From the NCBI GenBank assembly GCA_024683645.1, contig JAIKYA010000097.1, forward strand, positions 1-47,677: a DNA stretch of 47,677 nt. Reading direction: 5' to 3'. The position numbers were made by a program, and so were the translations under genes. Positions 4,566 to 28,445 of this stretch are shown here, piece by piece. How positions within the stretch are numbered: position 1 is the stretch's first letter; every line of letters begins with the position of its first letter. This DNA comes from Lachnospiraceae bacterium. Lineage in GTDB: Bacteria; Bacillota; Clostridia; Lachnospirales; Lachnospiraceae. The notes below the pieces were generated by a model. That model was not told where the DNA came from. It did not search any database and saw only the letters and a program-made list of their open reading frames with translations.

Positions 4566-5891
4566 ATGGCAGGAATCACTGAATTCGGAAACGAAATCTT
4601 CAATATCTGGGGTAATCCCGCATTAACAGTCAAAGATCCTTTAGCCTTTGTACCTATTATGGAAACCGTATTGGATAAAATGCCTCCCAATACGCCCGAT
4701 CTTACCAAAAACTGGCTGACCGGGCTTTACAATGATTACAGAGGCGGACATATCGGTCCTACTTTCGGAGATGAAGTATATACCTGTCTGACCGGTATAT
4801 ACATAAATATGGCCTGTAACCCCGATAAAAACCAGGAATTTGACTACAGTTACAGTTATGCGGTAGGTGAAAAAAGAAAAGCGGGCCTCATGCCCGTAAC
4901 TATAGGCGACACTGTGGATATCTCCGCAGGCTTCAGGGAAGAAGCCCAGAATGCCCACACCTGGGAAGAAATGGATGCCATCCTTGGCGGTCTGATCCAG
5001 ACCGGTATGAGCAATGCCAATGCAAACATGTGTCTTAACGGCTTCCTCCCCATGCTTGAACAGTTTCGTCAGAATATGCAGTCCATGGCCATGCAGAAAC
5101 CGCCCGTTCAGGCCAAGATGGGCATGACTTCGGCTCACTACCTGGATGAAAACATGATGAAACAGGCCCGCTATATGGTAAATGCAGCAGGCGATATGCT
5201 GGAGAACAGCCATATGTACTGTAAAGGAATGAGTGACGTTTACGCTCAATGCAAAGCAAACTATGTGGCTTTTGCCGAACAAAGCGATCCCACCCGCATC
5301 CGTTTAACTGATGCAGAAAAAACTTCCAAATTCTATCAGGGGCTTGAAGATAAGCTCCGTTCGATCAGAGATATTGAAAAAAAGATGCTTGAGGACAATC
5401 CTACTTTCCACAGGGATTCACCCGAGTATAAGGAAATGAAAGAAGCAGTTACCCGTGTCTTAACCTGTGCCAGGGCTCAGGGCTTTGATGAACGTATAAG
5501 AAATGAAACAAAGAATTCTCTCAGTCTCGATGACGGATTTGCGGCACAGATCCTTTTCGATGAAATGCACAAGCTTTACGAAAGCGCGGAAAAATATGCC
5601 AATAAGGAGGTCTTTGGACAGACAAAGAGCACCCAGAGAGGAATAGAACGAAAGAATACCGCTCTGGCGCTTATCGATCTGTCAAAACCCGATACCGTCA
5701 TTATCAACGATAAGGCCGTAGTGGACCGTCGTATGGACAAGCATGACAAACGCAAGCTCTCCCTGAAAGATATGCTGGATGAGGAAAAGAAGACCAACCT
5801 GCACGATCGCAGAAGCGAGATTGTTGTTATCCGCGATCACTCTAACAAACACACTCCCAAAACCCATGCCTCACGCGGTATGGGCATGTAA
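4566..5891 (+). CDS. Uncharacterised 441-aa cytoplasmic protein
   Basis: I recognise no family. The protein has no signal peptide or membrane segment and is predominantly helical. Residues 1-60 are Pro/Asn-rich, and 60-200 contain a Met-rich helical region with 'MQSMAMQKPP'. Residues 250-350 are charged helices that could form a coiled coil. The C-terminal 90 residues are strongly basic/acidic ('DRRMDKHDKRKLSLKDMLDEEKK') and end in a His/Arg-rich disordered tail. The start is supported by GGGGG 8-9 nt upstream. It is transcribed head-on to replication on this arm, as a single gene, and ends exactly where the 142-nt multi-hairpin repeat begins. Codon use does not differ visibly from neighbours. 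Confidence 0.75.
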   Translation: MAGITEFGNEIFNIWGNPALTVKDPLAFVPIMETVLDKMPPNTPDLTKNWLTGLYNDYRGGHIGPTFGDEVYTCLTGIYINMACNPDKNQEFDYSYSYAVGEKRKAGLMPVTIGDTVDISAGFREEAQNAHTWEEMDAILGGLIQTGMSNANANMCLNGFLPMLEQFRQNMQSMAMQKPPVQAKMGMTSAHYLDENMMKQARYMVNAAGDMLENSHMYCKGMSDVYAQCKANYVAFAEQSDPTRIRLTDAEKTSKFYQGLEDKLRSIRDIEKKMLEDNPTFHRDSPEYKEMKEAVTRVLTCARAQGFDERIRNETKNSLSLDDGFAAQILFDEMHKLYESAEKYANKEVFGQTKSTQRGIERKNTALALIDLSKPDTVIINDKAVVDRRMDKHDKRKLSLKDMLDEEKKTNLHDRRSEIVVIRDHSNKHTPKTHASRGMGM

Positions 5892-6033
5892 GAACAAAGC
5901 GTTCCGCTTGCGGAACGCCGACGCCTCGCGCGGTTGCCGAAGGCAACATTTTCCTCTCGCGCGAGTGCGCATCCCGCCCGGAGGGCTTTTTGCTTTATGG
6001 AAATTCCAGAGGAATTTCCTATAAAGTAAAAAA
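5892..6033 (+). repeat. 142-nt multi-hairpin intergenic repeat, copy 1
   Basis: This begins one base after the stop codon at 5889-5891. It contains hairpin A (GCGTTCCGC/GCGGAACGC, 5899-5918), hairpin B (GTTGCC/GGCAAC, 5933-5947), palindrome C (CTCGCGCGAG, 5956-5965), terminator-like hairpin D (GCCC-GGA-GGGC then TTTTT, 5976-5991) and hairpin E (GGAAATTCC-AGA-GGAATTTCC extended by CTTTAT/ATAAAG, 5993-6026). CTCGCGCG at 5925-5932 can alternatively pair with 5958-5965, enclosing hairpin B. The second copy at 26207-26348 has the same length and roughly 92% identity. Confidence 0.85.
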
Positions 6034-6056
6034 GCCGCGCACTCCGCGGCTTTTTT
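6034..6056 (+). terminator. Terminator following repeat copy 1
   Basis: GCCGCG/CGCGGC (6034-6039, 6045-6050) with loop CACTC is flanked by A6 and followed by T6. This stem is unrelated to the terminator that follows repeat copy 2. Confidence 0.85.
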
Positions 6057-22892: not shown

Positions 22893-23507
22893 TTACATTT
22901 CTATCGGAATAGGTGTCGGCTTCTTGGGGTTATCAGGTTTCGGATCCGGCTGCGGCTGTGGTTCAGGCTCGGGCTCGGGTTCCGGTTCAGGTTCCGGCTC
23001 CGGTTCAGGAGTAGCAGTAGGCTCCGGTATAGGTGTGGCTGTTGCTACCGGTACGGGAGTGGGAGTCGGTGCCAGTGTTGCTGTCGGTGCCGGCGTAGCA
23101 GTTGGCTTCGGTGTAGCAGTAGGCTCCGGTGTAGGAGTCGATGTAGCCGTAGGTTCCGGTGTCGGTGTGGCCGTGGGCTCCGGTGTAGGAGTCGATGTAG
23201 CCGTAGGTTCCGGTGTCGGTGTAGCGGTTGCCTCAGGTGTTTCGGTAGGCTCTACAGTCGGAGTAGGATCCTTCTCCGCTGAAGAAGAAGCAGGCTTGTC
23301 GTTGTCCTTGCTTTCTCTATAAGATTTGGTTGCCAAAGTAACCGCAATGATAACAAATGCAATAACAACTACTGCTATGACCGTAGGAAGTATAAGCTTC
23401 TTTAAAGGACTGTCTTCTAGTATAGCATTATTGTCTACCTTATTACCGCATTTGGGGCAGAATTTCGAGTTGTCATCTATCTCAGCCCCACAGTATGTAC
23501 AAAACAT
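22893..23507 (-). CDS. Zinc-ribbon membrane protein with Thr-Pro-Glu repeat stalk
   Basis: A 204-aa protein. Residues 1-22 are a zinc ribbon (Cys3, Cys6, Cys17, Cys20 in 'FCTYCG' and 'FCPKCG'), 38-60 are one membrane helix, and 76-200 are a low-complexity stalk of Thr-Pro-Glu-Ala units ending in a Pro-Glu run. The ribbon should be cytoplasmic and the stalk outside, long enough to cross part of the cell wall; no folded outer domain follows. Internal 54-bp DNA repeats show the stalk has grown by duplication. The start has GGAGG at 7-nt spacing and a good promoter (23544-23572). Function is unknown; ribbon-TM proteins are abundant in Lachnospiraceae. Confidence 0.8.
   Translation of the reverse strand: MFCTYCGAEIDDNSKFCPKCGNKVDNNAILEDSPLKKLILPTVIAVVVIAFVIIAVTLATKSYRESKDNDKPASSSAEKDPTPTVEPTETPEATATPTPEPTATSTPTPEPTATPTPEPTATSTPTPEPTATPKPTATPAPTATLAPTPTPVPVATATPIPEPTATPEPEPEPEPEPEPEPEPQPQPDPKPDNPKKPTPIPIEM
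23122..23222. repeat. 54-bp tandem repeat coding for Thr-Pro-Glu units
   Basis: The 54-bp unit starting at 23122 recurs at 23176. The first 47 bases of each unit are identical, so each encodes about 18 residues. It is part of a wider degenerate GGTGTNGGNGT-type repeat field covering about 22960-23260. Slippage here would change stalk length in frame. Confidence 0.85.
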
Positions 23508-25146: not shown

Positions 25147-26208
25147 ATGAACGTATGGACATACTGGAAGTGTCCCTCCTGCGGGGCAATAGTCAGGGGA
25201 GATAACCGTGACTGTCCAAACTGTGCTACACCTGTTCCGGCAAATACTAAATATCTGATGCCGGATAATCCGGAAGTAGAACAGGCGATCAAAAACGGAA
25301 CGGTATATATCACTTCCCATGACAAAGTGCAGAAAGGACAGGCAGTAACACAGGTTTCGCAGGATAAGGTAAGTAAGGATGCAAACTGGATCTGTGATTA
25401 CTGCGGATACCAGAATCCCGCAGCAAGCACGGTATGCGAAGGCTGTGGTGCACCAAAAGAAGAATCAAAAAGAGACTATTTCACACCAAAGCCTCCTAAA
25501 CCCACGCCGCCAAAACCGGCACCGGTAAGACAGAAGCCGCGGTTTAATAAAAAGATCTTTGCAGTGATCGCAGCGATACTGTTTCTTATCTGGCTCTTCA
25601 CTCCTGTTACGAGAAAAACCGTTATCACCGGTTTTGAATGGATGAGGAGCATCGGGGTCGATGAATACCAGCTGTGTCACGAGGATGACTGGGATATCCC
25701 GGCAGGTGCAAAAGTCACTTCACAAAAACAGGAAATACATCATTATGATCATGTGATCGATCATTATGAGACGAAGACAAGAGAGATTTCGGAACAGGTC
25801 CTCGACGGTTATGATACAGAATACGTAGACCTTGGAAACGGACAGGCTGAAACCCGATCGGTACCGCGATACAGAACGGAATACAGAACAGAAACATATG
25901 AAGATCCCGTATATAAAGATGTTCCGGTGTATCATACCAAATACTATTACGATATAGACCGTTGGATAGAGGTATCAAGTCTCGATTCCTCCGGTAACGA
26001 TCAGAATCCCTACTGGCCGGAAAGCGAACTGCCGGAAAGTGTTTCCTCACCTGTTTACGGCGACCGAAAGCTGGGACAGAGAAAAGAAGAGTACTACATC
26101 ATTTTCAAAGATAAAAAAGGAGAGGAACAGAAGAAAGAATACAGCTACAGTGAATGGAGCGAATATAAAAAAGGCGACACCATCACTTACAAAACTTTCA
26201 GATTTTGA
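25147..26208 (+). CDS. Membrane protein with zinc ribbon and RanBP2-type zinc finger
   Basis: A 353-aa protein with two different zinc modules ahead of one membrane helix. Residues 9-26 form a CxxC...CxxC ribbon (Cys9, 12, 23, 26). Residues 81-100 match the RanBP2-type finger W-x-C-x2-C-x10-C-x2-C (Trp81, Cys83, Cys86, Cys97, Cys100). A Pro/Lys linker (112-130) precedes the helix at 136-153. The outer part (160-353) is Tyr/Asp/Glu-rich with repeated 'YRTEYRTETYEDPVY'-type segments and lacks known domains. In eukaryotes RanBP2 fingers bind ubiquitin or RNA; here they may simply be structural. The stop codon overlaps the start of the second 142-nt repeat. Confidence 0.78.
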   Translation: MNVWTYWKCPSCGAIVRGDNRDCPNCATPVPANTKYLMPDNPEVEQAIKNGTVYITSHDKVQKGQAVTQVSQDKVSKDANWICDYCGYQNPAASTVCEGCGAPKEESKRDYFTPKPPKPTPPKPAPVRQKPRFNKKIFAVIAAILFLIWLFTPVTRKTVITGFEWMRSIGVDEYQLCHEDDWDIPAGAKVTSQKQEIHHYDHVIDHYETKTREISEQVLDGYDTEYVDLGNGQAETRSVPRYRTEYRTETYEDPVYKDVPVYHTKYYYDIDRWIEVSSLDSSGNDQNPYWPESELPESVSSPVYGDRKLGQRKEEYYIIFKDKKGEEQKKEYSYSEWSEYKKGDTITYKTFRF

Positions 26209-26348
26209 ACAAAGCGTTCCGCAAGCGGAACGCTAGCGCCGAGCGCGGTTGCCAAAGGCAACATTTTCCTCTCGCGCGAGTGATCATCCCGCCCGGAGGG
26301 CTTTTTGCTTTATGGAAATTCCAGAGGAATTTCCTATAAAGCAAAAAA
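26207..26348 (+). repeat. 142-nt multi-hairpin intergenic repeat, copy 2
   Basis: Same length and order of hairpins as copy 1 (5892-6033), with about 11 substitutions and no indels. Hairpin A keeps its 9-bp stem while its loop changes from TT to AA. Hairpin B keeps GTTGCC/GGCAAC while its loop changes from GAA to AAA. Hairpins D and E are unchanged. It begins inside the TGA stop codon of the preceding gene and ends at the A-tract of the next terminator. Confidence 0.85.
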
Positions 26349-26370
26349 GGCACTGTAAACAGTGCCTTTT
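26343..26370. terminator. Bidirectional terminator after repeat copy 2
   Basis: AAAAAAGGCACTG-TAAA-CAGTGCCTTTT forms a perfect stem that can work for the plus-strand zinc-finger operon and for gyrB on the minus strand. Confidence 0.9.

Positions 26371-26420: not shown

Positions 26421-28445
<2,025 letters not shown>

Follow-up and report, generated by a model that had tools for sequence, protein, structure and literature searches.

Twice within 47,677 nt of a Lachnospiraceae genome (contig JAIKYA010000097.1 of assembly GCA_024683645.1; this whole stretch is referred to below as the window) a 142-nt sequence with several predicted hairpins begins at the stop codon of a gene and runs into a terminator. 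A sequence-only reading of the window had proposed either a family of mobile 3'-UTR elements or a structured RNA released from mRNA 3' ends, which raises the question of what kind of element this is, whether it moves, and what feature of the genome determines where its copies lie.

Two copies in the window and their parts

The copies at 5892-6033 and 26207-26348 are 142 nt each and pair without gaps at 92% in a repeat finder, and BLAST gives 92.25% identity over the 142 nt, or 11 differences, in agreement with the equal lengths and roughly 11 changes originally reported. Between the two copies the loop of hairpin A changes from TT to AA and that of hairpin B from GAA to AAA while the stems are kept, so that the loop-only changes noted at the outset can be seen directly in the sequence. 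Copy 1 starts directly 3' of the TAA of ORF 4566-5891, and copy 2 starts at 26207, its GA completing the TGA of ORF 25147-26208. An A-tract stands at the end of both copies and is followed by a different terminator stem in each, and the predicted fold of copy plus terminator is far more stable than the folds of shuffled sequences (z -7.38 and -7.25; 0 of 200 shuffles reach each). The parts of the two copies are as follows, with pairing counts taken from the 66-sequence alignment A3 described below.

5892-6026, plus strand: copy 1, element proper (135 nt), left end GAAC and right end ATAAAG; the left end is GAAC in 19 of the 21 own-genome copies with a left flank, and the right junction varies among otherwise identical copies
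5899-5918, plus strand: hairpin A of copy 1; both-side changes in 6 of 8 pairs, 99% of cells paired
5922-5969, plus strand: stem C of copy 1, formed by arms 5922-5932 and 5958-5969, with hairpin B (5933-5947) inside it; helix C has both-side changes in 9 of 12 pairs and 84% of cells paired, and B has 62% of cells paired, fixed columns aligning B poorly
5967-5974, plus strand: conserved core GCGCATCC between stem C and hairpin D; in the 66-genome alignment each of the 8 positions is invariant or conserved to at least 90%
5976-5986, plus strand: hairpin D with GGA loop, then a T run; in A3, both-side changes in 2 of 3 inner pairs, the outer pair mostly unpaired
5987-5992, plus strand: TTTTTG on the 5' side of the hairpin E base; complementary to YAAAAA of the target (from the sequence, helix 6 of the covariation test and the within-genome comparison)
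5992-6026, plus strand: hairpin E, the right-end hairpin of copy 1; folds, with both-side changes in 7 of 11 pairs of helix 7
6027-6033, plus strand: target-derived pyrimidine and A-tract at copy 1; differs among copies with identical bodies
6034-6056, no strand assigned: terminator stem and T-tract adjoining copy 1 (the target), seen in the sequence; the relative G013 has a terminator at the same spot, without the element
26207-26341, plus strand: copy 2, element proper (sequence, repeat finder and BLAST)
26342-26348, plus strand: target-derived pyrimidine and A-tract at copy 2, from the sequence and by analogy with the junction comparison of identical-body copies
26349-26370, minus strand: terminator stem adjoining copy 2, seen in the sequence, downstream of minus-strand gyrB (26421-28430; DNA gyrase B by Pfam)

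Elsewhere in the window, positions 22984-23252 hold short direct repeats (family D1), a 59-nt register present six times within overlapping ORFs of the two strands.

A repeat family in the genomes of Lachnospiraceae

In its own genome (G000; 3.1 Mb in 203 contigs) the element gave 58 BLAST rows, which represent 40 separate places; of the remaining 18 rows, 17 arise where palindromic parts of listed copies match on the opposite strand, and one is a degenerate partial copy that adjoins another copy. Near-complete copies number 25, with 92-100% identity to copy 1, one more copy spans positions 1-135, and the other 14 are incomplete, divergent or truncated by a contig end. These 14 include a second subfamily, whose hairpin A is different but compensated. 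Of all 40 places, 12 lie within 40 nt of a contig end.

Beyond this genome, BLAST found the element in 10 of 60 genomes: its own, 8 of the 34 other genomes in the genus and a single one from a different genus of the family. With a covariance model built from 24 sequences (R1) it was found in 95 of 200 sampled genomes of the family, representing 94 of 199 genera, with copy counts that are lower bounds because at most 16 candidates were scored per genome. Across the class, matches at E 1e-5 were obtained in 12 of 291 genomes, six of them outside the family and mostly weak. Butyrivibrio, Roseburia, Eisenbergiella, Herbinix and [Eubacterium] cellulosolvens are among the matches listed, names that point to the Lachnospiraceae as the family concerned. 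One copy lies in a MAG labelled Anaerolineaceae (L185), through contamination or transfer.

The original remark that no named family was known agrees with the Rfam results. No Rfam family matched in the window at gathering score, and with the limit relaxed to E 10 the region around copy 1 gave 47 matches, every one below its own gathering score. A scan of ten loci found only 6S RNA, tRNA and a group II intron end, with no match at the element copies. Among the titles and abstract beginnings listed from the open-access literature, in several cases the top-ranked part of the hits, and from which subscription papers are mostly absent, no paper appeared to be about this family, which may be known elsewhere. 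The part shown of the genome table in PMC2267715 contains Clostridium perfringens and C. tetani and no Lachnospiraceae, and the available portion of PMC3733652 does not contain the terms Firmicutes, Clostridi-, Eubacterium or Roseburia.

The element was not found to carry any gene of its own. Copies split near position 73 had suggested a gene insertion, and hence a full-length autonomous version; the insert proved to be a 58-nt pair of extra hairpins. This extra hairpin pair lies inside stem C in five loci from other species of the genus (L321, L322, L323, L324 and L330). Plasmids gave no element match. Among viral contigs the 15-base core matched 30, none of which, by eye, runs on into hairpins D and E, and the hairpin-E pattern gave 0 matches. 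Three unannotated faecal 'phage' records match over 49-75% of the element, and the copies in the faecal 'phage' records L319 and L320 (MT838019 and MT835472), each followed by a hairpin, may be bacterial DNA. A search of all loci collected for hairpin E without the upstream core returned 79 matches, 40 of them without the core, which by eye are opposite-strand matches and known copies.

The copies are most alike within a genome. Among 115 copies from 70 genomes, identity was 0.91 within genomes (mean of genome means, over the 15 genomes with at least two copies) versus 0.68 between genomes, and the nearest neighbour came from the same genome for 49 of 60 copies, versus a mean of 3.1 and a maximum of 10 with shuffled labels. 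In two loci from Clostridia outside the family (L353 and L354) the ends are kept (GAACAAAG and the TTTATAGGAAAT hairpin) and the interior is different, as expected if a mobiliser reads the ends; together, the same-genome clustering and these shared ends fit a mobile element whose ends a shared mobiliser reads. Another locus from Clostridia outside the family, L352, has a similar right hairpin and a different interior.

Covariation of the predicted stems

The tested structure was set on the window copy and assessed in A3, a structure-free alignment of 66 sequences, made up of the window copy and 65 other loci or assemblies represented by a single copy apiece, which leaves out L254 and above and spans of more than 160 nt. 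Both sides change in 38 of 51 pairs, a count exceeding that of every one of 500 shuffles, and 85.0% of cells pair versus 72.7% in shuffled alignments. The covariation score of 0.305 compares with 0.110 in the shuffles, which do not keep relatedness and of which 0 of 500 reach it, and with at most 0.094 when the structure is slid along the alignment, a control on which a structure taken from one member favours itself. Pairs mostly unformed across A3 include two in stem C (columns 37-81 and 38-79), some of those in B, the outermost of D and a single one in E; counts at hairpin B, in the middle of E and at the two stem C pairs are uninformative because the columns are misaligned (B and E) or mostly unpaired (C). 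The conserved landmarks are the left end nAAnAAAG, the GCGCATCC core, the GGA loop of hairpin D and the right-end hairpin E. Judged from the aligned sequences, the stems of the element covary, and the one-per-genome alignment supports the predicted fold.

Stems kept across a whole bacterial family could also mean a function for the host, in which case the element might act, for example, as a barrier to antisense or read-through transcription at terminators, with recombination as its means of spread and selection maintaining it. In favour of such a function are the strong covariation across many genera and the conservation of the GCGCATCC core and the GGA loop, but the presence of the element is patchy (8 of 34 other genomes of the genus by BLAST and 95 of 200 of the family by the model), its copies cluster by genome, and the relative G013 has the corresponding sites without it. 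We regard a host function as quite improbable.

The constant neighbour is a terminator

By simple ORF picks in the own genome, 34 copies have a called left neighbour, which for 14 of them is on the plus strand; three of these 14 copies start within 3 nt of the gene end, and a fourth shares 30 nt with the called ORF. A right neighbour is called for 31 copies and is encoded on the minus strand for 27 of them. The placement exactly at a stop codon that the sequence-only reading described is thus accurate for both window copies and fails as a rule, since few own-genome copies touch stops. The covariance-model search which that reading had suggested did bring out copies in many genomes (95 of 200), and the stems covary (38 of 51 pairs change on both sides), but the consistent position after stop codons that the reading also listed did not appear.

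The same arrangement of neighbours emerged from 106 copies in other genomes, made up of 29 from one set and 77 rows of at least 80 bits uncut by an end, after lower-scoring, cut and opposite-strand rows and the phage-labelled L319 had been dropped. The gene to the right is encoded on the minus strand in 80 cases and on the plus strand in 12, and within 150 nt the division is 62 versus 2. For the gene to the left the counts are 65 minus and 31 plus among the 96 called cases, so that most copies lie outside a plus-strand 3' UTR, and the proposal of a 3'-UTR element is not supported.

The right flank itself is structured. With a cut of -10 kcal/mol, which was our choice, the 45 nt to the right of the element fold at the cut or better in 84 of 98 other-genome copies, the 45 nt to the left in 5 of 98 and the stretch 60 nt further right in 16 of 98, and the right-flank mean is -15.2 versus -6.3 in mononucleotide shuffles. 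In the own genome the right flank passes the cut in 26 of 28 copies and the left flank in 4 of 30. Right flanks below the cut are those of 14 of the 98 other-genome copies and, among the 28 own copies, L021 and L035, the former having no hairpin there. Four outside-family loci were examined, and the right flank folds at -10.8 to -19.0 kcal/mol in three and at -6.3 in L350.

These right-flank folds, together with the neighbour strands, place the element beside an intrinsic terminator in a fixed orientation, usually with the T-tract of a gene on the minus strand immediately before it. Copy 2 follows this pattern in adjoining the terminator of minus-strand gyrB. Copy 1 is atypical in that its right gene is on the plus strand, and its terminator, which has both an A-tract and a T-tract, could act both ways. 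The element is not tied to stop codons; its constant feature is a right end abutting an intrinsic terminator, usually that of an opposite-strand gene.

Unoccupied sites in a relative

Evidence for movement comes from G013, the best-matching relative at both window sites (83% and 89% DNA identity), whose genome has no BLAST match to the element anywhere. The copy 1 site is unoccupied in G013, where the same gene end is followed by 16 nt and then by AAAA and the terminator; these 16 nt between the stop and the A-tract are absent at copy 1. Eleven further flanks were searched in G013, ten with orthologs and one (L018) without a clear ortholog. At six (L004, L010, L013, L019, L027 and L038) both sides have a BLAST match and the element is absent, and it is likewise absent at L012 and L020, where the left side was found by BLAST and the right by eye (over 54 nt only for L012). 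At L008 and L030 the right gene is kept and the left side is not or only weakly syntenic. In total, 9 of 12 sites examined are unoccupied with both sides kept, and at the G013 junctions corresponding to copy 1, L004, L013, L020, L027 and L038 the terminator hairpin is plain by eye. At any single site a loss from G013 is possible, but no copy was found anywhere in G013. The idea of a mobile family, advanced from the window alone, is supported by the 40 places in one genome and the nine sites unoccupied in G013.

The genes flanking copy 2 are about 2.5 kb apart in G013 and differently oriented. The stop of ORF 25147-26208 (window 26206-26208) is made by the first bases of the element, leaving the ORF five residues (SNKPL) shorter than its G013 ortholog, and the G013 sequence at the end of that ortholog (AACAAACCGTT) resembles the left end of the element.

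Junctions and target sequence

The boundary on the right side was drawn from groups of own-genome copies that are identical over 122 nt (positions 14-135), beyond which they have either T or C followed by differing A-rich tracts, for example AAAAAAGC, ATAAAAGC, AAGAAGAG and GAAAAAAG. Position 136 (alignment column 137), just outside, has a minor-allele frequency of 0.44 versus a body mean of 0.02, and a few body positions that separate two subgroups also vary, with frequencies up to 0.36. Since the bodies are identical and the right junctions differ, ATAAAG, reaching 6026 and 26341, is taken as the right end of the element, and the pyrimidine and A-tract come from the target. The 142-nt copies do run into A-tracts followed by different stems, as first noted; the terminators in question are the insertion target.

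No conserved target is seen at the left (5') end, where own copies have a weak preference for A at -1 (14 of 21); the left tetranucleotides in A3 include GAAC in 19 of 66 and CAAG in 6 of 66. On the right, the TTTTTG-type base pairs with the YAAAAA-type tract in 96% of cells in helix 6, although later hairpin correction could give the same figure. Matched changes in TTTTTG and the A-tract occur in some other-genome copies (for example L175, L234, L239 and L205) and could reflect either guide pairing or later hairpin correction.

The organization of the ends also bears on the possibility of a classical MITE moved by a DDE transposase. The element is small, dispersed and non-coding, as a MITE would be, but it lacks inverted terminal repeats (GAACAAAG at one end, the E hairpin at the other), and by eye no obvious target duplication is present in the flanks or at the G013 sites. 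Such an origin is very improbable.

Candidate mobilisers and the acting strand

Three protein families were compared between the same 200 genomes with and without the element, and none tracked it significantly: Y1_Tnp was found in 56 of 95 genomes with the element and 60 of 105 without (p 0.89), GIIM in 38 of 95 and 30 of 105 (p 0.10), and Y2_Tnp in 21 of 95 and 13 of 105 (p 0.09). Neither Y2_Tnp nor a GIIM-type reverse transcriptase (RT) was found in G000, and 7 of the 33 genomes with at least 10 scored copies lack both Y1 and GIIM. A non-autonomous element can, however, persist after its partner is lost. A RAYT-type gene beside half a hairpin E in G000 was considered as a mobiliser and rejected, as only 1 of 13 Y1 loci (L138) is near an element piece and the flanks examined carry other repeats. 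At L138 (positions 1740-2815, G000 contig 46) this transposase gene, with GGGACAAAGG-type repeats, comes after a terminator and the half hairpin E, and the terminator region is present on both sides of it.

Tests of which strand acts disagree. G.T versus A.C mismatches are 19 to 3 in stems A and C, 37 to 12 in E, 1 to 17 in B (partly misalignment) and 129 to 86 over all well-paired columns. Strand energies divide 40 to 26 for the whole element (p 0.11), 43 to 21 for the E part (p 0.008) and 29 to 37 for the A-C part, and wobble counts by strand are nearly equal at 115 and 120.

An RNA intermediate deserves consideration here. In a SINE-like retroposition, a plus-strand RNA ending near hairpin E would be primed by the T-tract 3' of a minus-strand terminator and reverse transcribed by an RT acting in trans. 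The target constraint at the 3' side only, the junction of A-tract against T-tract and the covarying fold are all consistent with this route, as are five copies in which the left part is absent and the right end kept (L039, L055, L056, L062 and L064). In L025 (87-151) the right end of an element copy directly adjoins the 3' end of a group II intron (RF00029, 42.1 bits), meaning that an element of that kind has used the same spot. However, a GIIM-type RT was not found in G000 and the family shows no significant tracking of the element, copies without the right part also exist (L030, L032, L036, L038 and L040), the left end is precise (GAAC in 19 of 21), and no transcript is known. On balance we consider retroposition unlikely.

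A proposed mode of insertion and its relation to known systems

That the element is mobile and targeted to terminators is very likely. The fuller account that we favour, and judge reasonably probable as a whole, is that of a non-autonomous mobile element of about 135 nt which inserts beside intrinsic terminators, possibly as a folded single strand, through HUH-like joining by an enzyme acting in trans; the single-strand HUH-like step, taken by itself, is tentative. The copies show lineage-specific amplification within genomes of one bacterial family, the Lachnospiraceae, and on the element strand they lie just 5' of the pyrimidine and A-tract preceding a terminator stem, which on the other strand is just after the T-tract. 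The moving form may be a folded single strand, possibly hairpin-ended single-stranded DNA, with the right-end hairpin E as its active end. The TTTTTG next to E would pair with the target YAAAAA and so select terminator A-tracts, and a DNA-nicking enzyme supplied in trans would join the right end to the target. An HUH-like logic is suggested because one target side is conserved, a hairpin is subterminal and no target duplication is seen. More generally, a right-only target constraint and an end hairpin without inverted ends or duplication indicate HUH-type movement or target-primed reverse transcription, rather than DDE. A narrower version, possible but more doubtful still, would make this a miniature element with its own six-base guide, in which TTTTTG pairs with the A-tract 5' of the terminator and directs insertion to safe sites, with a mobiliser outside the three tested protein families.

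Several known systems share parts of this description. ERIC, BOX, RUP and Bcr1-type repeats are non-coding, dispersed and folded sequences of about 100-200 nt, and the element resembles them in this general description; these repeats are not known to target terminators. Group IIC introns insert next to intrinsic terminators, as the element does, but the window has no domain V-VI match in Rfam at gathering score. REP/REPIN sequences and IS200/IS605 (Y1 HUH) are similar in being small dispersed palindromic repeats, largely intergenic, with subterminal hairpins. In IS200/IS605, according to the available part of PMC6006769, the cleaved sequence interacts with a short guide located immediately 5' of the hairpin foot. 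The complementarity of the TTTTTG beside hairpin E to the target tract resembles this guide pairing, although later hairpin correction could also account for it. In contrast to REP and IS200/IS605, the element has about 135 nt, five hairpins and a conserved target at the 3' side, and Y1 genes do not track it. In IS801 of the IS91 family (Y2 HUH), the available part of PMC3189936 describes an essential right end, a left end starting with GAAC and the targets GAAC, GGAC, CAAG and CGAC; the element likewise has no proper terminal inverted repeats and a left GAAC. It differs from IS91/IS801 in its target, YAAAAA before a terminator and not a GAAC/CAAG-type tetranucleotide, and in that a Y2 gene was not found in G000 or in 74 of the 95 element-bearing genomes.

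The finding has a practical side, as the element breaks assemblies, with 12 of its 40 places near contig ends, and because one genome holds copies that are nearly identical, the way it inserts can be tested directly. For the Lachnospiraceae, it means that a strongly covarying repeat without an Rfam match is present in about half of the sampled genera of the family, and its targeting of terminators, if true, would give a clear example of safe-site insertion by a bacterial mobile element.
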